Shown here: piece after piece, positions 10,026 to 45,500 of the stretch
Layout: every line of letters starts with the position of its first letter
How positions within the stretch are numbered: position 1 is the first letter of the stretch
Origin: Opitutus sp.
GTDB lineage: Bacteria; Verrucomicrobiota; Verrucomicrobiia; Opitutales; Opitutaceae
Reading direction: 5' to 3'
Assembly: GCA_013821985.1 (NCBI GenBank)
Contig: PNJQ01000001.1
Coordinates: forward strand, 108,195-172,194
Length of the DNA stretch: 64,000 bases
The notes under the pieces: model-generated
The model's input: only the letters and a program-made list of their open reading frames with translations
Databases searched by the model: none
Told to the model about the DNA's origin: nothing
Made by a program: the position numbers and the translations under genes

Positions 10026-10745
10026 TCACAGCCGGTAGCTCGCGCTGGCAGCGTCGTTCGCGAACATCTTCACCGTGTCGAGCGACAGCGCGGTCAGGTC
10101 CATGCCGAGCAGTTTGGCCGCCTTGGCGAGCACGTCGTGAGTGACGGTGACGATGCCGCAGCCGCATTGCTCGGCTTGCACGATATTCAACACCTCGCGC
10201 ACGCTGGCCCAAAGCAGCTCCGCCTTGGGCTGATGGGTGAGCAGCTCGCGGCTGGCACGCATGATTGGCATAGGATCGACGCCGGTGTCGGCGATGCGCC
10301 CGGCGAAGACCGAAACGACTGACGGCACGCGCGGATTCAGCACCGCGGCGACGGCGCGGACCTGTTCCAGCGTGAGGATTGCCGTGATGTTAAGCTGCAC
10401 GCCTTCCGCCGCGAGTTCGCGAATCAGTGCCGTGGACGGTTCCGCGCGCGTGTTCGTGATGGGGATTTTTACATAGACGTTGCGGCCCCAGCTCGCGATT
10501 TGAAGTGCCTGGCGTTTCATCTCGGGGAATTCGTCGGCGAACACCTCGAGCGAGATTGGCTTGGCGGTGACGACCTGCAGGATATCGCGCGCAAAGGCCT
10601 CGTAGTCGGTAATCCCCGCCTTTTTCATCAGCGTGGGATTTGTCGTGAGGCCCTTGATGTAGGGCTTGGCGTAGAGGTCGAGGATGCCGGCCTTGTCGGC
10701 GCCATCGGCATAGATCTGGATCTTGAGGTCGTTAAGTCCGGGCAT
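10026..10745 (-). CDS. Transaldolase-family protein (small transaldolase / fructose-6-phosphate aldolase type)
   Basis: MPGLNDLKIQIYADGADKAGILDLYAKPYIKGLTTNPTLMKKAG...SLEVFADEF...VYVKIPITNTR (Schiff-base Lys motif). Confidence 0.88.
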   Translation of the reverse strand: MPGLNDLKIQIYADGADKAGILDLYAKPYIKGLTTNPTLMKKAGITDYEAFARDILQVVTAKPISLEVFADEFPEMKRQALQIASWGRNVYVKIPITNTRAEPSTALIRELAAEGVQLNITAILTLEQVRAVAAVLNPRVPSVVSVFAGRIADTGVDPMPIMRASRELLTHQPKAELLWASVREVLNIVQAEQCGCGIVTVTHDVLAKAAKLLGMDLTALSLDTVKMFANDAASASYRL

Positions 10746-10753
10746 GGTGGAAT

Positions 10754-11353
10754 TCAGGAATGGGCCAGAATGATCTCGGTCGCGCGAGCAAGATCAGGGG
10801 CGGTGAAATGAGGACGGGCGCGCAGAGATTCGTCGTATCCGAGATCAAGGAAGACGGTCCGGACGCCGGCGCGATGACCGCAATCGATATCGCGCCACCG
10901 ATCGCCGACCATCCACGAACGGCTGAGATCCAGGCCGAGGGCGGTGGCGGCGTCGAGGAGCATGCCGGGCGCGGGTTTGCGGCGCGGGTCCTCCGGATGG
11001 GCGCCGCCCTGGCCGGGTGCGATGCAAACTTCGATCCGTTCGATCTCTGGGATGAGCGCGCGCAGGCGGACGTGCATGGCCTCGACGAGCGCGGCGGGAG
11101 TGGTGCCGCGGCCGACGTCGGGCTGGTTGGTGGCGACGACGAGCGCGAAGCCGGCAGCGTGCAGCCGCTGGCACGCCGCGGCGACGCCGGGCAACAGATG
11201 AAATTCGTCGAGCGTGGCGGGTGGATACGGTTTTCCTGCGCGCACGACGGGGGCGTTCAACGTGCCGTCACGGTCGAGAAAGACGGCCGGGCGAAGAAGG
11301 ATATCGGCCACGTCCGCGCGGGTCAGAGCTTCGTCGCGGCGACCGACTCCCAC
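10754..11353 (-). CDS. gmhB: HAD-family D-glycero-D-manno-heptose-(1,7)-bisphosphate phosphatase-like
   Basis: RPAVFLDRDGTLN...FALVVATNQPDVGRG...CIAPGQGGAHPEDPRRKPAPGML...WMVGDRWRDIDCG; start uncertain. Confidence 0.85.
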   Translation of the reverse strand: MGVGRRDEALTRADVADILLRPAVFLDRDGTLNAPVVRAGKPYPPATLDEFHLLPGVAAACQRLHAAGFALVVATNQPDVGRGTTPAALVEAMHVRLRALIPEIERIEVCIAPGQGGAHPEDPRRKPAPGMLLDAATALGLDLSRSWMVGDRWRDIDCGHRAGVRTVFLDLGYDESLRARPHFTAPDLARATEIILAHS

Positions 11354-11931
11354 TTTGTCTGCGCGATCTTGAGATCCGGGTGCGAGACGAAAAGGTGCCA
11401 GACGACGGCTTGGAACGCCTCGGAGTGCGGCGTGATGGTGGCGGCGTTGACCACCGGGACGATGACGCAGGCGTGGGCGACCTTGGCGGTGTAGCCGCCG
11501 TCCTTGCCGAGGATGCCGACAATGCGCGCGCCGGTGTGCTGTGCGAATTGCAGAGCGGTGACGAGGTTCGGCGAGACGTTTTGCTCAAGATTGCCGCCGC
11601 CGACGGAGAAGACCAGCACGCAGTCCTTCGCGTTCAGGCGCGAGGTGCGCAACCACTCCACGAATACCGTGGCCCAGCCTTCATCGTTCGTGCGCGCGGT
11701 GAGTTCGGAGACGTTGTCGGTGGGCGCGTAGGTCTCGAGCCCGGCGATCTTGCGGAAATCGTTCACGGCGTGCGACGCGTTGGCCGCGCTGCCGCCGACT
11801 CCAAGGATGAAGAGGCGTCCGCCCCGGTCGCGCGTGGCGCGGAGTTCGGCGACGCAAGCCTCGCAGTCGGTCGGATTGAGGCGCGCAACGATCTCGGCCG
11901 TTTCGCGCAGGTGCTGGGCAGCGTAGGACAT
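11323..11931 (-). CDS. gmhA: SIS-domain sedoheptulose-7-phosphate isomerase-like protein
   Basis: MSYAAQHLRETAEIV...ILGVGGSAANASHAVNDFRK...SVGGGNLEQNVSPNLVTAL; the track ORF extends upstream to 12159, start at ATG 11931 preferred. Confidence 0.82.
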   Translation of the reverse strand: MSYAAQHLRETAEIVARLNPTDCEACVAELRATRDRGGRLFILGVGGSAANASHAVNDFRKIAGLETYAPTDNVSELTARTNDEGWATVFVEWLRTSRLNAKDCVLVFSVGGGNLEQNVSPNLVTALQFAQHTGARIVGILGKDGGYTAKVAHACVIVPVVNAATITPHSEAFQAVVWHLFVSHPDLKIAQTKWESVAATKL

Positions 11932-11980: not shown

Positions 11981-12709
11981 TCAACTCGCACCGGCCCCCG
12001 GCGCGCGGCGGAGATGACGATCCAATTCAGCCAGACCGGCGACCGAACCAATCTCGTAGAAACGCTCGCGGATTTCGTGTCCCGAGAGCTGGCCACGCCG
12101 ACTGAGCTCCGCTTGCACGGTGGCGAGATCCACGGACGTCTCGCGCGGATATCCCGCAAACGCTGCGGCGCGCATCACACTCAAACCGTAGTCGATGTGG
12201 TGCATGCGGGGTTGTTTCTCGGACTTCGAGTAGAGACGTATCTGGCCGTCTTCGAACCACACGTTACTTGCGTCGAAGGCTCCGCGGTTTTCGTAAACCG
12301 TCATCAGAGCCGGCTGCCCCGCGGCAATAAACGCCTGCCCGACGGCCGCATAGTCGATCGGCAGGTAGGAATCGCCATACAGCACGTAGAAGGCGTCGCC
12401 CAGTTTCGGCAGCGCGCGGATCAGGGCTCCGCCTGTGCCGAGGGGTTTTTCGCCGTCGAAAGAGTATTCGATTTCCACGCCCCAGCCGGCCCCGTCTCCA
12501 TAGCGCGCGACGATTTGTTCGCCGAGGTGACCGACGCAGAGCACGAGGCGCCTAAGGCCGGCGCTTCGAAGGAGGCGGAGTTGGTGATTGAAAAACGGCT
12601 CGCCCGCGACCTCCACGAGCAGTTTCGGTATTGTCCGGGTGATTGCGCCCAAGCGGGTGGCCTTGCCGCCGGCAAGCAGCGCGACAGGCAGCGGAGCGGT
12701 AGGTTTCAC
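11981..12709 (-). CDS. hddC: Nucleotidyltransferase, D-glycero-alpha-D-manno-heptose-1-phosphate guanylyltransferase-like
   Basis: VALLAGGKATRLGAITRTIPKLLVEVAGEPFFNHQLRLLRSAG...EKPLGTGGALIRAL...YGDSYLPIDY. Confidence 0.82.
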   Translation of the reverse strand: MKPTAPLPVALLAGGKATRLGAITRTIPKLLVEVAGEPFFNHQLRLLRSAGLRRLVLCVGHLGEQIVARYGDGAGWGVEIEYSFDGEKPLGTGGALIRALPKLGDAFYVLYGDSYLPIDYAAVGQAFIAAGQPALMTVYENRGAFDASNVWFEDGQIRLYSKSEKQPRMHHIDYGLSVMRAAAFAGYPRETSVDLATVQAELSRRGQLSGHEIRERFYEIGSVAGLAELDRHLRRAPGAGAS

Positions 12710-12746: not shown

Positions 12747-13730
12747 TTAATTCTGGGCGACGACTTTGGTGCCTTCGAAATCGAACCGGAACCGCACTTC
12801 GGGCAGACCCTTTTCCCGCATGGCGTGACGCAGTCGCGTCTTCTCCGGCGCGTAGAACATCAGAAAACCGCCGCCGCCGGCTCCGATGAGTTTTCCTCCG
12901 AGCGCTCCGTTGGCCATAGCATGATTATACCATTCGTTGATGCGGTCGTTGGTCATGCCGGAACTGCGCGCCTTTTTGCGCTGCCAGTGGACATCCATCA
13001 GGCGGGCGAATTCTTCCAAATTGCCGTTTTCAAGCGATTCGAGCGAGCGGTAGCCGAGTTCCTTCGTGAAGTGGAGATTGTCGAGCATCACCGGGTTGTT
13101 CTCCTTCGATTTGTCGTTCTGGTCCTTCAAAATTGCCGAAGCCGAGCGCGAATAACCGGTGAAGAAAAGCAGGAGATTATCCTCCAGATTGAACAGCGAT
13201 TCCTCGGAAATTTTGCACGGCCGGTATTCGACCCTTCCGTCACGATGGAACGTGAATGCCGTGATACCACCGACGGCCGCGATGTATTGGTCCTGCTTGC
13301 CCACCGGTTCGCCGAGTTTGTCGATCTCGATGTGACAGGCCTCCTCGGCCAATTCGGCGGGCGAGATGAGATTTTTTTTCGCCGTATGCAGGACCTTCAG
13401 CAGCGCCGTGGTGAAGCTGCCCGATGAACCGAGACCGGTGCCGCCGGGAATGTCCGCCATGGACGTCAACTCGAGGCTGCGCCCATCCAGACCGAGCAGC
13501 GCGAACGCTTCGCGCACGATCGGGTGCTCGAGCTGACTGGCGTGCGCGACGCGCTCGAGTTTCGAATATTTGACGATCAGGTCCGGCACGAATGTCCGGT
13601 GCAGTGTCAGGTAAACATATTTGTCGAGCGCACCGGCGACGAGAAAACCGCCGTGCTCCCGATAATACGACGGGAGGTCGGTGCCGCCACCACCAAGGGA
13701 AATGCGCAAGGGCGAACGCGTGATGATCAT
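12747..13730 (-). CDS. hddA: GHMP kinase, D-glycero-alpha-D-manno-heptose-7-phosphate kinase-like
   Basis: MIITRSPLRISLGGGGTDLPSYYREHGGFLVAGALDKYVYLT...DIPGGTGLGSSGSFTTALL...KLIGAGGGGFLMFY. Confidence 0.9.
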   Translation of the reverse strand: MIITRSPLRISLGGGGTDLPSYYREHGGFLVAGALDKYVYLTLHRTFVPDLIVKYSKLERVAHASQLEHPIVREAFALLGLDGRSLELTSMADIPGGTGLGSSGSFTTALLKVLHTAKKNLISPAELAEEACHIEIDKLGEPVGKQDQYIAAVGGITAFTFHRDGRVEYRPCKISEESLFNLEDNLLLFFTGYSRSASAILKDQNDKSKENNPVMLDNLHFTKELGYRSLESLENGNLEEFARLMDVHWQRKKARSSGMTNDRINEWYNHAMANGALGGKLIGAGGGGFLMFYAPEKTRLRHAMREKGLPEVRFRFDFEGTKVVAQN

Positions 13731-14764
13731 GGGGCGAGTTGGTGGAGGGAGGCCGTGTTCACCGGATAGCCGCTCTGCCGGTAGATCGATTCCACGATCT
13801 CGAGCGTGCGGGTGGCTTCGGTCAAGCCAGGGGTGGGCGCGCGGTCGAGACGGAGGTCGTCCTCGAAGGCCGCGAGCTCGCGCCGCCACGAGTCGTCGGT
13901 GGCGGGGTATTCCCAAACCTTCGTCTCGGGCGGCCCCATTTGCGGCAGCATCTTGTAGAAGGTGCATCGCTCCAATCCATAGCTGCCGCCCAGACCATCG
14001 ATCGCGATCTTCGCGTCGCGGCCATAAATCTCGAGGGAGAAGAGATTTTTCCACTCGGTGCAACTGACGTGCAGCCACGCGGTCTGTCCCTGCCCGGTGC
14101 GCAACGAGAGGAACGCGTTGTCGTCAACCGGCATGTCCCAATAGGACGTAGTGGCGTGACCCTCCACGCGCGCGAATTCGCCGAGAAACCATCCGGCGAG
14201 ATCGATCAGGTGGACGCCTTGATCGATGAGTTCGCCCCCACCCGAGAGTCGGGGATCGGCGCGCCATTCACGATCATAGCCCTTGCGCCCGCCGTGGCCA
14301 TAACGTCCGCGCAGAAACATCAGCGGGCCGAGCGCGCCTTGCGCGACCAGTTCGCGGGCCTGCTGCAACGCCGGATGGAAGCGGTGATTGTAGCCGATGC
14401 GAACCTTGGCGCCCGTGCGGGCCGCGGCGGCGGCGATTGTGCGAAGTTGTCCGGCATTCAGCGCGCCGGGCTTTTCCACCAACACATGTTTACCGGCTTC
14501 CACCGCGGCGAGCGTCAGCGGAGCGAGAGCGCCGTTGATCGTTGCAACGATGCACGCATCGACGGTTGGATCGGCGAGCGCAGGGGACCAGTCCGCGATG
14601 CAAAGGCAATCTGGCGCGCTGGCTGCGAGCGTCTGGGCGCGCGCGACATCGACATCGCAGGCGTAGCGCAGCTGTCCGGGTCGCAGGGCGGCCGCGCGCT
14701 TTTTGCCGATGACACCGCAACCGGCGATCGCGTAGCGCAAGGGTGCAGGGGGCGCGTCTGGCAT
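13727..14764 (-). CDS. Gfo/Idh/MocA-family oxidoreductase
   Basis: RYAIAGCGVIGKKRAAAL...GKHVLVEKPGALNAGQLR...GYNHRFHPALQQ. Confidence 0.9.
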   Translation of the reverse strand: MPDAPPAPLRYAIAGCGVIGKKRAAALRPGQLRYACDVDVARAQTLAASAPDCLCIADWSPALADPTVDACIVATINGALAPLTLAAVEAGKHVLVEKPGALNAGQLRTIAAAAARTGAKVRIGYNHRFHPALQQARELVAQGALGPLMFLRGRYGHGGRKGYDREWRADPRLSGGGELIDQGVHLIDLAGWFLGEFARVEGHATTSYWDMPVDDNAFLSLRTGQGQTAWLHVSCTEWKNLFSLEIYGRDAKIAIDGLGGSYGLERCTFYKMLPQMGPPETKVWEYPATDDSWRRELAAFEDDLRLDRAPTPGLTEATRTLEIVESIYRQSGYPVNTASLHQLAP

Positions 14765-14767
14765 GGG

Positions 14768-15628
14768 CTAAACGGAGAACTTGCGACCGCGGTCTTCCGG
14801 GACGATCCGGCGCAACGTGTAAACGTCGCCCGCGAGTTCGGCGCGCAGCTGCGCGAAATTCCGCCAGGGATCCCACTGGGCGCTGATCAATTTGCCCGTG
14901 ATGCCCTCGCCCTCCGAGCTGGCGAGGTGGACGCAGAGTGCCGCCCCGAGCCTCGGATCCACGGCGCCTTCCTCCGACCATTTTTTATTTTTCGCGAAAA
15001 ATTCTGCGCCCGCTCGCTGGGGACCGGCCGCCAGAACCTGTTGCGTCATGCGGGTGCGCAGCGCGCCAGGCGCAACAGCGTTCACCCAGATGCAATCCTC
15101 GCGGTATTCCTCGGCGAGCGTCTCGGTCAGGCGGACAAGGGCCGCCTTCGTGGCCGCATAAGTTGCGAGTCGAGGCATGGGGTTGGTTGCCCCGCCACCG
15201 GAAATGTTGATGATGCGCCCCGAGCGGCGCGGCTTCATGCCTCGCAAGGCGTGTTGGCACACGAGCAATACGCCCGTGACGTTAATTTGCCACGCGCGCG
15301 TCCACTCCGCCAAATCCACCGTCTCGGTCGGGCCAATCGGCCCATAAACCCCGGCGTTGTTCACGACGGTATGCAACGGCCCGACCTCTGCGGTCCGCGC
15401 GAACAGCGCGGCGACACTCGTCGGCTCGGCGACATCGGCGGTGACACCGACGAGTTTCTGGTCGGGGTTTAATCGCGGTTGCAGTTCGGCTCGGGTGCGC
15501 TCGACGTCCTCGCTCGTGCGCGCACAAAAGACGACGTGCGCGCCTTCGGCGAGAAAGGCTTCGACGATATGACGGCCGAGGCCTTGGCTGCCGCCGGTGA
15601 CGAGTGTGGTGAGGCCGGGAAGTTTCAT
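14768..15628 (-). CDS. Short-chain dehydrogenase/reductase
   Basis: MKLPGLTTLVTGGSQGLGRHIVEAFLAEGAHVVFCAR...VNNAGVYGP...YAATKAAL. Confidence 0.9.
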   Translation of the reverse strand: MKLPGLTTLVTGGSQGLGRHIVEAFLAEGAHVVFCARTSEDVERTRAELQPRLNPDQKLVGVTADVAEPTSVAALFARTAEVGPLHTVVNNAGVYGPIGPTETVDLAEWTRAWQINVTGVLLVCQHALRGMKPRRSGRIINISGGGATNPMPRLATYAATKAALVRLTETLAEEYREDCIWVNAVAPGALRTRMTQQVLAAGPQRAGAEFFAKNKKWSEEGAVDPRLGAALCVHLASSEGEGITGKLISAQWDPWRNFAQLRAELAGDVYTLRRIVPEDRGRKFSV

Positions 15629-16887
15629 GGACGACCGACGGTGAGGTAGAGAAGGCCCGGGTGGCCAGCCACGACTTTTTCGACGTGGCGATTCGCGTCG
15701 ATGACGACCGGCCGGCTCATGGCGGCAAGGAGGACAGGCCAGTCATAGTTGCGAAACTCCGGCCACTCCGTGCAAATGACGACAGCGTGTGCGCCGTGCA
15801 CCGCGTCGGCGGGATTTCCGAAGAGCGCAAGATCGTGATGGTCGCCATCGGTCGCGCGAATTAGCGGATCGAAGGCGCGGACGGTCACGCCGCCCGCTGC
15901 GAGCGTGCGACAAAGTTCTACCGCTGAACTGCGCCGCAATGTGCTCGTGCCCGGCGTGTAGGCGAGACCGAGCACGGCGACCGTCGGATGAGCGATGCCG
16001 GCCAGCACGGGGGCGAGTTTGCGGGCGACCCAGCCCCGGTGACGGTCGTTGCTCTCCTTGATCGCGGGAATCAGTGCCAGGGGCACCTTCTGTTGTGCAC
16101 CTAGGCCGGTGAGGGTGACCACGTCGCGCGCCAGCGTGCCGCCGGCGAACGGCCCGCCGGGATTAAGGTAGGCGCGGGCGCCGATGCGGGGCTCGCTCTT
16201 CAACCCATCCGCGACTTCACGGGCGTCGGCACCGACAGTTTCGGACAGTGCGGCAATCTCGTTCACGAACGCAATGGACAGCGCGAGGAAGGAATTCAGG
16301 GCGTGCTTCACCATCTCGGCGGATTCCGGTCGCATCCAAAAGAGGGGCGCGCCGAGCGGGGCAAACAGCTGTTCGAGCACGCCGCGAGCGATGACAGGGG
16401 CGCCCACGATGATCCGGGCCGGATGCTCGAATGCGTCGATGGCCTTGCCGAGCCGCAGGTTCTCGGGTGAACACGCGATCGGGTGGTGCGGAAATCGTGC
16501 GGCCAGGCGCGCGCACGATCCGACCGGGAGTTGCGACGAAACGAGCACCGGTGTGTTCGGCGCCAGTGCAGGTATTGCGCGCGCAATGCGCTCGAGCACC
16601 CACTCGGACTCAGACTGGTCGTCGGCGTTGACCGGAGTGTCGTAGCACACCCACAATAGGTCGGCGGCGGCGATCGCGGCCGGATCGATGGCGAAGCGCA
16701 GGGCGCCGCGCTTGATGCCTTGCGCGAGGAGTTCGTCGAGACCGGGCTCACGTAACGGCGCGCGCGCCGTTTCCAGTCCCGCGACGGTCGCTGCGTCAAA
16801 ATCGAGGCCGATCACATCGTGATGGCGAGCGGTGCACGCCGCGGTGACAGATCCGAGATGCCAGAGGCCGAGCACGGCGACTTTCAT
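15625..16887 (-). CDS. UDP-glucose/GDP-mannose dehydrogenase-family protein lacking the catalytic Cys
   Basis: MKVAVLGLWHLGSVTAACTARHHDVIGLDFD...ACSPENLRLGKAIDAFEHPARIIVG...EMVKHALNSFLALSIAFVNEIA; the usual GFGGxCFPKD appears as GPFAGGTLARD. Confidence 0.85.
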   Translation of the reverse strand: MKVAVLGLWHLGSVTAACTARHHDVIGLDFDAATVAGLETARAPLREPGLDELLAQGIKRGALRFAIDPAAIAAADLLWVCYDTPVNADDQSESEWVLERIARAIPALAPNTPVLVSSQLPVGSCARLAARFPHHPIACSPENLRLGKAIDAFEHPARIIVGAPVIARGVLEQLFAPLGAPLFWMRPESAEMVKHALNSFLALSIAFVNEIAALSETVGADAREVADGLKSEPRIGARAYLNPGGPFAGGTLARDVVTLTGLGAQQKVPLALIPAIKESNDRHRGWVARKLAPVLAGIAHPTVAVLGLAYTPGTSTLRRSSAVELCRTLAAGGVTVRAFDPLIRATDGDHHDLALFGNPADAVHGAHAVVICTEWPEFRNYDWPVLLAAMSRPVVIDANRHVEKVVAGHPGLLYLTVGRP

Positions 16888-16893
16888 GGGGAA

Positions 16894-18537
16894 TCAGGGA
16901 GCGTTACGCTGGTAGAGCGAGAGCTGGCGGCCAAACACGCGAAATGTTTCCACGCGCTCCAAGTTGGCTTCGCACCACGCCTTGAGCTGCGGGTAGAGGC
17001 GGCGCATTTGTTTGTCGTAAGGCCAGTGGCCAGGGCCGTCCATCTGGTCGGTGAGGACGACAAAATGGCAGAGCTTCAGACGATAGAGCATAACTTCGTC
17101 GGTGTCTTCGAGAATGCTGTTCGGCAATTGGATCACGAACGGCACCCATATTTTTTTTCGTTCGTAGCAGATGACCTGCAGGATCTGGGCGTCGAAATAG
17201 TCGACCACCTGGTCGATGGCGATGTAGGGATTCTTTATCTGGTTCCGTCGGGCGGACTCGAAGATCCGGTCGGCCACCTCGTTGATTTTCCGAACACTCG
17301 CGAGGTCGGCTTGGACGGGGTGGATCTGCCGGTTCACGTAAAACCATCCCCCGATCCCGAGGGCGAGCATCGCCGGCGCCAGCGCAAGACGGCGTCGGAG
17401 CGGAGCCGCGTTTTCGAAGGCGATGCGGTCCCACGCGCACGCCCACAACGCCGGCACGAGCAGGACGATGCCGCCGACGAGAACGCCGAGCACGTATTCC
17501 GATTTCTGCCGGTGCAGGGTCAGCACGGCGGCGGGCAGCAGCGAAAAAATCAACGCGCTGAACATCCAAGCGCGCCGGGAGTGGGCGGACTCCCGCCGCG
17601 GTCCCCACACCCAGAGGACCGCCACCATCGCCGTGAGCACGGCCACGGCCCAACCGAACTGCGCCCCGAGGTGCATGCGTCCAAGATTGGCGAAGATGAA
17701 CTGCACCGAATTCCAAAGATCGAGTCCGCGGAACCGCGCCGTGCTCTCCGCACCACTGACGTGGCCTACCCAGTAATAATTGTAGATCGCCTCGCGACTG
17801 TGCCAAAAGGCCGGCAACGCCACCGCCGTCGCGATCGCACCGGCCAAGACCAGATGGCCGAGGCGGCGCCAGCGCTCACGGCCGGTGGCGGCCCAGATCG
17901 CGAACGTCACAAAGATCGCTGCAAAATACGCCCCGGTGAGGAACCGTTCGAGCAGCGTTATGGCGACTGCAACTCCGAACGCCACCGACCAGCCGCGGTG
18001 GCGAAATCCGTCGCTCAGGGCGGCGCAGCAGGCGGCGACGCCCATCAGGCACATGGCCGCGTGGTCGAGGCGGAAATCCACGGCGGAGCCCGCTTCGCCC
18101 GACCAGGGCCACGCCACACACAACACGAGGCCGAACGCCATCCAGCCGAGCACCCGCGAACCAGTGAGTCGATGAACCGTGAAGAGCAGCGCGGCTTGCC
18201 AGACGAGAAACACGAGCATGTTCAGACTCAAGGCGGCGCTGCGCGACGGCGAGCCGGTCACGGTGAACACGACCAGCGCCGCCACATCGTGCAGCGTGCC
18301 CTGCAGCGCGGTCTTGGTCAGCGCGGTCTTTGCGCTGGAGAAGAAGCCCTCGCTCTGTGCGCGCTCGTAAGCGGTGTAGGCTTCGGAGAGGTATTGGATC
18401 TGATCGTTCCAACGCGGATAGACCGAGGCGTGGTGCCGAGATGTCATCCGGTCGAAGAGCAGGAACTCAGCGACCATCAACGTGACGGCGAGAACCCACA
18501 TCCAGCGGGTGGCGGAAGCTGGCACGCTCGCGCTCAT
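16894..18537 (-). CDS. Multi-TM membrane protein, probable GT-C-like glycosyltransferase
   Basis: About 10 hydrophobic segments; N-terminal MSASVPASATRWMWVLAVTLMVAEFLLFDRM; soluble C-terminus. Confidence 0.65.
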   Translation of the reverse strand: MSASVPASATRWMWVLAVTLMVAEFLLFDRMTSRHHASVYPRWNDQIQYLSEAYTAYERAQSEGFFSSAKTALTKTALQGTLHDVAALVVFTVTGSPSRSAALSLNMLVFLVWQAALLFTVHRLTGSRVLGWMAFGLVLCVAWPWSGEAGSAVDFRLDHAAMCLMGVAACCAALSDGFRHRGWSVAFGVAVAITLLERFLTGAYFAAIFVTFAIWAATGRERWRRLGHLVLAGAIATAVALPAFWHSREAIYNYYWVGHVSGAESTARFRGLDLWNSVQFIFANLGRMHLGAQFGWAVAVLTAMVAVLWVWGPRRESAHSRRAWMFSALIFSLLPAAVLTLHRQKSEYVLGVLVGGIVLLVPALWACAWDRIAFENAAPLRRRLALAPAMLALGIGGWFYVNRQIHPVQADLASVRKINEVADRIFESARRNQIKNPYIAIDQVVDYFDAQILQVICYERKKIWVPFVIQLPNSILEDTDEVMLYRLKLCHFVVLTDQMDGPGHWPYDKQMRRLYPQLKAWCEANLERVETFRVFGRQLSLYQRNAP

Positions 18538-19529
18538 GAGTTCACGCCGCGCGCGGCATAGACCCAGGGATTATCGCGCAGCCAGCGCACGGTGCGCACG
18601 ACGCCTTGTGCGATGGTGAGCTTCGGGCGCCAGCCGGTGGCTTGGATTTTTTGCGTATCGAGAAAAATGAAGGGGTTGTCGCCGATCCAACCGCGGTCAC
18701 CGCCGGTGTAGTCGAGACGAGGCGTGACCCCGAGTTCGGCGCAAAGGTGAGCGATGCTTTGATTGACCTCCACATATTCGGGCGTGCCGAGGTTGTAAAC
18801 CTGCGTGCGGTGCCGGGCCTCGCGTGCCGTGTGAGCGCGCGCGACGTGCAGGATCCCATCGAGACAGTCCTGCACGTAGAGGTAGCTCTTGCGCTGGCGA
18901 CCGTTGCCCAGGACGCGCAGGTAATCCGGATGCTGGCGCAACTGGTGATAGAAATCAAAGACGTGGCCGTGCGTGTAGCGTTCGCCGAGGATCGACACGA
19001 AGCGGAATACGTAGGCCTCATCGAGCTGCCCGCCCTCCGCGTAGGCAGAAATCAAGCCCTCGCCGGCGGTCTTGGACGCGGCGTAGAGCGAGGTCTGGAC
19101 TGGAAATGCATCGGTCTCCGGCGTGGGTCGGTCCGGCGTGACGAGCGCCTCGCCATAGACGGAGCCAGTCGAGGAAAACGCCATGCGCCGCACGCCGTTC
19201 GCGCGCATCGCTTCGAGGACGTTGAAGGTGGCGATGGTGTTTTGCTCGAGGTCGCGGCGCGGGTGCGACCAGCCGTCCTTGATGTCGGCGTTGGCCGCAA
19301 GGTGGAATACGAAGTCCGTGTCGCGCATTCCGGCGGTCAGGGCCGGAAGATCGAGGTTGTCGCCGCGCAGTAGTTGGAAGCGGGGATTTTTTTGTGCCTC
19401 CGCCAGAAAACGCAACTGGCCGGTAGCGAGGTTGTCCCAGCCGGTGACGGCGACGCCGTCGGCCAGCAGGCGGTCAACGAGGTGGGAGCCGATGAAGCCG
19501 GCGGCGCCGGTGACGAAAGCGTGATTCAT
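18534..19529 (-). CDS. NAD-dependent nucleotide-sugar epimerase (UDP-glucose 4-epimerase-like)
   Basis: MNHAFVTGAAGFIGSHLVDRLLADGVAVTGWDNLATGQ...SSTGSVYGEA...YAASKTAGE. Confidence 0.88.
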   Translation of the reverse strand: MNHAFVTGAAGFIGSHLVDRLLADGVAVTGWDNLATGQLRFLAEAQKNPRFQLLRGDNLDLPALTAGMRDTDFVFHLAANADIKDGWSHPRRDLEQNTIATFNVLEAMRANGVRRMAFSSTGSVYGEALVTPDRPTPETDAFPVQTSLYAASKTAGEGLISAYAEGGQLDEAYVFRFVSILGERYTHGHVFDFYHQLRQHPDYLRVLGNGRQRKSYLYVQDCLDGILHVARAHTAREARHRTQVYNLGTPEYVEVNQSIAHLCAELGVTPRLDYTGGDRGWIGDNPFIFLDTQKIQATGWRPKLTIAQGVVRTVRWLRDNPWVYAARGVNS

Positions 19530-44132: not shown

Positions 44133-45500
44133 TCAGGGCGAGGCCCACAATGCCTTCAGTTGGCCATCGATTTCACTGGAGGTGCAGATGCCGATCGGTA
44201 GGTAGCGGATCCTTGGGTCACGGGCGAGGGGCTTGAGGGCGCGCCAAAAATCGACAACTGTAATTTGAGTTTTGCCTTTGAGCAGCTGCTCCGGAGTCAA
44301 GGCCAAGTAGGGTTTGTCGGTGGTGGTGACAAGCACAACGTCGGCATCGCGAAGCGCCTCATCGAGGTTGTCGGTGACGAGTGCGCTCATCTTTAAGGCG
44401 GTCTCCGCGTAAGGCGCGGCGAGCGCATCGTGGCCGACCACGCGGTAGCCTGCTTCAGAGAGGGCGCGACACAGGTAAACGCCTGGCGACTCCTCAATCA
44501 CGTGCGAGAGGGGCTTGTAGGCGAGGCCGAGCACGGCGACGTTGGCCCCGCGTGGCAGATGGGGCTGCAATTTTTCGACATAGCGGCGCGAGAGACCGCG
44601 GTTGTAGTCGTCGTTGGTCTTGAGGAGACGGCTGTCAACGCCGAGTTGATCGCCCATGAAGTTGAGTGCGACGTTGTCGCGCGGGAAGCACGGGCCGCCG
44701 AACCCGAAGCCGCCGGTCAGATACTTTCGGCCGATGCGTTTATCCATCCCGAGCGCGTCACTCACGACATCGACGTCTCCGCCCGGCACCTTCTCGCAAA
44801 ATTCCGCCAGCATGTTGGCGAATGAGATTTTCATCGTCACAAAGCTATTCACCGAGATTTTGGCGATCTCGGCGTTTTCCAGGCTCATGCGTTTTACAGG
44901 CGCGTTGTTCTGCGAGACGCGGTGATGAATTTCCTCGAGGGCGTCGCCGGAACGCGGGTCGAACTCTCCGAGCAGGTAGAAATCCGGGTTAAGGAAATCC
45001 CGAATGACGGACCCAAGCGCGATGAACTCCGGGTTGTAGCAGAGGCCGAAGTCCGGGCCGCACTTCTTGCCTGATTCCGCTTCAAGAATGGGCAACAATC
45101 CATGGCGCGTCGCACCCGGCAGCACCGTGCTGGTGAGCACGATGACATGATAACGATTTTTCTTTTTCAGAGCCTGCCCCAGGGACTTGAACGCGTAGCG
45201 GGCGTATTGCAGGGAAAAGGCGCCTCGCTCGTCGCTCGGAGTCGGCACGATGACGAAACTGATGTCGCTATTCTCGACGGCGTCGTGGACGTCGAGTGTC
45301 GCGCGGATGCGGGGCTGGTGGGCCGCGATCATGTCGCCGAGATTTGTCTCTTGGACCGGTTCGCGGCCAGAGTTGATCGCATCGACAGCGTTTTTGTTTA
45401 CGTCGACGCCGATGACGTTCAGTCCGCGCGAGGCCATGCCCGCGAGCATGCTGGCGCCGAGTTTGCCGAGTCCGATGATGGAGACGTTTTGGATGCTCAT
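44133..45500 (-). CDS. UDP-glucose/GDP-mannose 6-dehydrogenase-family protein (catalytic Cys intact)
   Basis: VSIIGLGKLGASMLAGMASRGLNVIGVDVNKNAVDAINSG...YNPEFIALGSVIRDFLNPDFYLLGE...GGFGFGGPCFPRDNVAL. Confidence 0.9.
   Translation of the reverse strand: MSIQNVSIIGLGKLGASMLAGMASRGLNVIGVDVNKNAVDAINSGREPVQETNLGDMIAAHQPRIRATLDVHDAVENSDISFVIVPTPSDERGAFSLQYARYAFKSLGQALKKKNRYHVIVLTSTVLPGATRHGLLPILEAESGKKCGPDFGLCYNPEFIALGSVIRDFLNPDFYLLGEFDPRSGDALEEIHHRVSQNNAPVKRMSLENAEIAKISVNSFVTMKISFANMLAEFCEKVPGGDVDVVSDALGMDKRIGRKYLTGGFGFGGPCFPRDNVALNFMGDQLGVDSRLLKTNDDYNRGLSRRYVEKLQPHLPRGANVAVLGLAYKPLSHVIEESPGVYLCRALSEAGYRVVGHDALAAPYAETALKMSALVTDNLDEALRDADVVLVTTTDKPYLALTPEQLLKGKTQITVVDFWRALKPLARDPRIRYLPIGICTSSEIDGQLKALWASP

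Follow-up and report, generated by a model that had tools for sequence, protein, structure and literature searches.

The gene at positions 15625-16887 of the window, by which we mean the whole 64,000-nucleotide stretch of Opitutus sp. DNA analyzed here, encodes a protein of the UGDH family with a threonine where the catalytic cysteine is expected. This raises the question whether the protein is a broken dehydrogenase or an enzyme suited to a different reaction. The interval holds a single open reading frame of 420 amino acids on the minus strand (read 16887 to 15625) and many stops on the plus strand. A previous sequence-only reading had described the gene as coupled to an SDR gene; the two genes indeed share four overlapping bases (ATGA), but the coordinates given there have to be read on the minus strand. 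The product carries the family landmarks quoted in that reading (GLWHLG, SPENLRLGKAIDAFEHPARIIVG and EMVKHALNSFLA) as well as the altered loop GPFAGGTLARD. Alignment of LNPGGPFAGGTLARD over LHAGPGYGGSCFPKD of solved UGDHs places Thr251, encoded by an ACG codon on the minus strand (window 16135-16137), at the position of the catalytic cysteine, so that the proposed replacement of Cys by Thr stands. All three Pfam UDPG_MGDP_dh domains are found above their cut-off, the TIGR03026 score is 271.8 against a cut-off of 189.8, and the middle glycine of the GxGxxG motif is lost. A structure model, which had also been called for, is full-length and confident (pLDDT 94), and its best PDB matches are the UGDHs BceC, UgdG and human UGDH with TM values of about 0.9.

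Since threonine occurs in every close relative and throughout the clade described below, we discarded a sequencing error or a lone mutation as its source. A substitute cysteine that fills the active site from elsewhere, for which a search had been suggested, was likewise rejected because none of the six cysteines of the protein (residues 18, 81, 125, 139, 326 and 372) is conserved across the clade. The genome contains four UGDH-family genes, and two ordinary Cys members were among the loci read. One of them, at 44133-45500 and also on the minus strand, shows the normal GFGGPCFPRD loop ascribed to it before. This gene has a normal cysteine yet lies on a very long tree branch (3.27), and its function may be unusual.

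A clade of Thr-type enzymes that includes LmbL and CcbL

A genome scan with the Thr251 protein as query yielded 58 loci. All relatives with at least 44% identity that cover the site share the loop GG-T-L-x-RD, the motif SPENLRLG or LPENLRLG, and KHxxN, whereas relatives at about 35% identity or less possess the ordinary Cys loop (GGxC) and an NPEF- or SPEF-type motif. Threonine occupies the catalytic-cysteine position in 22 of 22 aligned clade members and cysteine in 43 of 43 sequences outside the clade, which is far beyond chance; the former count leaves out one distant member from Actinomycetota (L144), which has asparagine. The linked motifs WHL, PENLRLG, KHxxN and TLxRD accompany the threonine in all 22 aligned sequences. 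In a tree of 68 sequences, a branch supported at 100/98 separates all rows without the cysteine, CcbL and LmbL included, from the others, and the same branch is recovered with 100/99 after removal of the motif columns. The Thr251 enzyme thus groups with LmbL and CcbL, apart from the Cys-type UGDHs.

Members of the clade come from Verrucomicrobiota, from plasmids (two Rhizobium megaplasmids and Lawsonia intracellularis plasmid 3), from a Clostridiales bacterium and from Actinomycetota, the last contributing L143 (GGTLGRD) besides the distant L144 (GGNLERD). Within Verrucomicrobiota the distribution is patchy, with the Thr-type gene present in 10 of the 289 sampled genomes. The asparagine-containing gene (L144:8593-10818) adjoins SDR, Gfo/Idh, transaldolase and LmbS-like genes and possibly represents a third variant.

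The connection to LmbL and CcbL was made through the lincomycin and celesticetin gene clusters. Gene functions of the lincomycin octose branch are described in the literature (PMC4351081, PMC12945683), in which LmbM, LmbL and CcbZ together with CcbS turn GDP-octose into GDP-lincosamide (PMC12945683) and the genes form the subcluster lmbRSOPZNML (PMC7014725). A profile of the Thr251 enzyme proved unsuitable as a route to Streptomyces LmbL, returning ordinary Cys-type UGDHs first, and the clusters were found with the HddA-like kinase, which as query against 394 genomes of one genus, taken as Streptomyces, matched eight. Two of the Streptomyces regions show the order K-L-M-N-Z-P-O-S-R, consistent with the lmbRSOPZNML subcluster. 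One (L135) is taken as the celesticetin cluster because one of its proteins is identical to CcbF (PDB 8kdk) across all 416 residues and its Gfo/Idh enzyme bears the carrier domain of CcbZ. The other (L136) is taken as the lincomycin cluster because it encodes a protein identical across all 436 residues to LmbT, to which a review assigns 8ILA, and bears the carrier domain on LmbN. The L enzymes of the two clusters read GAAFSGSTLQRD (GSTLQRD, CcbL) and GAAFSGATLRRD (GATLRRD, LmbL) and have the threonine in common. Hence, what the sequence-only reading had treated as an unexplained oddity is the state common to a known enzyme group. The window enzyme further shares GLWHLG, SQxPxxT, PENLRLG, KHxxN and (G/S/A)TLxRD with LmbL and CcbL, but is only about 38% identical to them, and substrate and outcome may therefore differ.

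The gene cassette around the Thr251 enzyme

The neighbors of the Thr251 gene, all on the minus strand, match LmbR, N, P, K, O, M and Z. The overlapping gene (14768-15628) encodes a classical SDR oxidoreductase, which from its domains and the locus comparison is a putative ketoreductase in place of LmbS. It is accompanied by a Gfo/Idh/MocA oxidoreductase (13727-14764), the LmbZ/CcbZ counterpart, and, as judged from domains and locus comparison, by an HddA-like GHMP sugar-phosphate kinase (12747-13730, LmbP counterpart), an HddC-like sugar-1-phosphate nucleotidylyltransferase (11981-12709, LmbO), a distantly GmhA-like SIS-domain isomerase (11323-11931, the LmbN isomerase) and a GmhB-like HAD-IIIA phosphatase (10754-11353, LmbK). 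A small transaldolase (10026-10745) belongs to TIGR02134 by family score and is the counterpart of LmbR by position and reaction. An NAD-dependent epimerase of the extended SDR type (18534-19529) corresponds to LmbM. The gene between epimerase and dehydrogenase (16894-18537), found at this place in closer relatives only, has a product without a Pfam match; from its hydrophobic sequence, we guess at a membrane glycosyltransferase-like protein. CcbL, CcbM and CcbZ each find their best match in the genome in a cassette gene of the window (1.3e-58, 2.6e-59 and 6.3e-52, versus 2.5e-24, 1.1e-20 and 1.8e-26 for the respective next matches).

The sequence-only reading had also suggested surveying homologs for co-conservation of the threonine with the neighboring genes, and such co-conservation is evident. 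Epimerase, Thr enzyme, SDR, Gfo/Idh enzyme, kinase, nucleotidyltransferase, isomerase, phosphatase and transaldolase co-occur in Opitutaceae, Rhizobium, Lawsonia and L143, and the GmhB match alone is missing from the cassettes of Akkermansiaceae and Verrucomicrobiaceae; the visible part of the cassette on a short Clostridiales contig agrees. The complete nine-gene set is present at 13 of the 32 Thr-type loci, a further five are complete but for the GmhB match, and in the five Streptomyces loci the SDR is the one gene missing. Several of the remaining incomplete loci lie on short contigs, and one locus (L027) is a real exception that has no transaldolase, isomerase, phosphatase or nucleotidyltransferase within 10 kb. 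A transaldolase or HddA-like gene was found near none of the 36 Cys-type UGDH loci (0/36). The transaldolases of L143 and L144 are about 29% identical to that of the window, the other L143 genes being closer (39-55%, phosphatase 38%); from these sequences, cassette transaldolases seem to have been recruited from different subfamilies.

The window thus combines the companion genes of LmbL and CcbL in the lincosamide clusters (transaldolase, isomerase, kinase, phosphatase, nucleotidyltransferase, epimerase and Gfo/Idh enzyme) with an SDR where those clusters have the LmbS aminotransferase. SDR and LmbS are mutually exclusive at every compared locus except L144, which has both. LmbS without an SDR is found in the lincosamide clusters and in three further Streptomyces clusters, and no LmbS-like aminotransferase was detected in the non-actinobacterial Thr-type loci or among the window genes scanned, where the SDR is present instead. 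Unlike the lincosamide genes, the window cassette is placed among glycosyltransferases and not in an antibiotic cluster.

The three further Streptomyces clusters (L140, L141 and L142) encode LmbL-like GATLHRD enzymes next to LmbS- and LmbT-like genes, the latter at about 33% identity. No CcbF or carrier-domain match occurs within the 20 kb read, and these clusters possibly direct the synthesis of an uncharacterised octose-containing natural product.

Active-site substitutions and competing explanations

A published comparison of 229 NDP-sugar dehydrogenases lists the residues that never or hardly ever vary, together with their roles (PMC4794789); in the numbering of the S. pyogenes enzyme used there, Cys260 serves the second oxidation, Tyr10 the hydrolysis of the thioester, and Lys204, Asn208 and Asp264 the first step. 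We compared these positions between 22 Thr-type and 43 Cys-type rows. All 22 Thr-type sequences share the exchanges of Cys260 to Thr, Tyr10 to His, Gly9 to Trp, Thr118 to Gln, Phe142 to Asn, Glu145 to Leu and Lys263 to Arg; among the 43 Cys-type rows, five have a histidine for Tyr10 and two a glutamine for Glu145. Glu141, Lys204, Asn208, Asp264 and Asn287, which act in binding and the first oxidation, are kept. The window enzyme accordingly resembles UGDH and AlgD in its three-domain fold and in Lys204, Asn208 and Asp264, but differs from them in having Thr251 and His10 for Cys260 and Tyr10 and in lacking Thr118 and Glu145. As far as the aligned residues tell, the pattern in the Thr-type clade is one of removal of the second half-reaction, in line with the earlier expectation that the second oxidation would be missing, and a four-electron oxidation is not expected of these enzymes.

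Heptoses and octoses carry a secondary alcohol at C6, the oxidation of which leads to a ketone and no further to an acid. Since oxidation of an octose at this position yields a ketone, neither a thioester step nor a cysteine would be needed, and the thioester-forming cysteine and the thioester-hydrolysing residues could therefore be lost together. A ketone as the outcome would account for the change of Cys to Thr without any loss of function, and makes the earlier idea that the enzyme stops at the aldehyde unlikely. We consider it probable that the window enzyme is a UGDH-fold member of the LmbL/CcbL family that performs a single two-electron oxidation at C6 of a GDP-bound higher-carbon sugar, encoded in a lincosamide-style cassette.

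An alternative would be that the protein behaves like a UGDH deprived of its cysteine and releases a free aldehyde made from a hexose (UDP-Glc or GDP-Man) for use by the SDR or the Gfo/Idh enzyme. Cys mutants of UGDH lose the second oxidation, and the fold and the conserved first-oxidation residues would fit such a reaction. We nevertheless regard it as very improbable, because a higher-carbon sugar pathway accompanies the entire clade, with LmbL among its members, but never the Cys-type loci, and because the sugar site has changed at Phe142 (to Asn), Lys263 (to Arg) and Glu145 (to Leu). Still less credible is a degenerate, non-catalytic paralog that serves as a regulatory or structural subunit. 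Such a role could be read from the absence of a residue that all 229 aligned dehydrogenases share (PMC4794789) and of the middle glycine of GxGxxG, but the equivalents of Lys204, Asn208 and Asp264 as well as the new motif are strictly conserved across phyla, the confident full-length model argues against decay, and LmbL of the same clade functions in the lincosamide pathway (PMC12945683).

The length of the sugar is harder to judge. The sequence-only reading had placed the enzyme in the tailoring of a heptose or other sugar. The gene set, which matches the lincomycin octose branch, bears out a higher-carbon sugar nucleotide, but makes a heptose doubtful. LmbL-family chemistry might still act on a seven-carbon sugar, with GDP-heptose oxidized to the 6-ketone and reduced again by the SDR, for example with inversion at C6, and the transaldolase merely topping up sedoheptulose 7-phosphate. 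The neighbors do bear names from the GDP-D-glycero-D-manno-heptose pathway (GmhA, HddA, GmhB, HddC) and would catalyze the same types of isomerase, kinase, phosphatase and nucleotidyltransferase reactions. As a heptose, too, has a secondary carbon at C6, this reading would account for the loss of the cysteine just as well. Moreover, the window transaldolase is of the housekeeping type (TIGR02134), a subfamily other than that of LmbR, to which it is only about 29% identical, and it may therefore supply sedoheptulose 7-phosphate. However, all four heptose-named proteins miss their NCBIfam equivalog cut-offs (GmhA 45.8 versus 209, HddA 146.7 versus 600, GmhB 93.8 versus 178 and HddC 60.5 versus 300 bits), and a better GmhA match than the cassette isomerase is encoded elsewhere in the genome. 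A second transaldolase is also encoded elsewhere, which seems to leave little need for a copy dedicated to sedoheptulose 7-phosphate. With its additional transaldolase, epimerase and LmbL- and LmbZ-like genes, the whole set corresponds gene for gene to the octose pathway. The dedicated transaldolase and the missed cut-offs speak in favor of eight carbons, and we regard the heptose route as unlikely. GDP-octose is our best reading of the substrate.

A proposed octose pathway and its destination

In the pathway that we propose, the transaldolase would form an octulose 8-phosphate, which isomerase, kinase, phosphatase and guanylyltransferase would convert to GDP-octose as the substrate of the LmbM-like epimerase. 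The Thr enzyme would then oxidize C6 to the ketone with NAD+. LmbL reportedly carries out a 6,8-dehydration, and the window enzyme probably also retains the NADH and completes such a redox-neutral dehydration to a 6-keto-8-deoxy sugar. The Gfo/Idh enzyme may epimerize another center. Because SDR and LmbS alternate between loci, we propose a reduction of the ketone by the SDR in place of its transamination by LmbS in the lincosamide pathways; the product would be something like a GDP-8-deoxy-octose for a surface glycan. The L144 locus, with its asparagine and LmbS-like genes, indicates that the family is not uniform.

The surrounding locus encodes many glycosyltransferases and methyltransferases and an ABC transporter ATPase with a Wzt-type C-terminal domain, for which reason we propose a role in surface-glycan synthesis. 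Our best reading of the window enzyme is thus a C6 dehydrogenase or redox-neutral 6,8-dehydratase that, followed by ketoreduction through the SDR, would feed this locus. By its clade and its gene neighborhood, it adds a new member to the LmbL group, encoded in a variant form of the octose cassette of lincosamides, and is not a broken dehydrogenase. We lean somewhat towards the wider view that a lincosamide-type GDP-octose pathway ending in an SDR, with the UGDH-fold enzyme as C6 oxidase or 6,8-dehydratase, supplies Verrucomicrobiota, rhizobia, Lawsonia and others with an octose or 8-deoxy-octose for their surface polysaccharides. The host and its distant relatives would then probably have an unusual long-chain sugar exposed at the cell surface; we know of no unbranched octose described in surface glycans, and a literature search returned no report of an octose-type cassette outside the lincosamides. 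Lincomycin octose chemistry would in this case extend beyond Streptomyces antibiotics to several phyla and to loci that resemble surface-glycan loci, and it becomes directly testable where the lincosamide sugar pathway arose and what such glycans are composed of. The combination of (G/A/S)TLxRD, PENLRLG and WHL may serve as a marker motif for ketone-forming two-electron enzymes of the UGDH fold.

Two further observations concern the plasmid-borne loci. The two Rhizobium megaplasmids (L103 and L104) carry the complete SDR-type cassette in records without gene annotation at this place, and all nine genes of this cassette are found on plasmid 3 of the intracellular bacterium Lawsonia intracellularis (L105).
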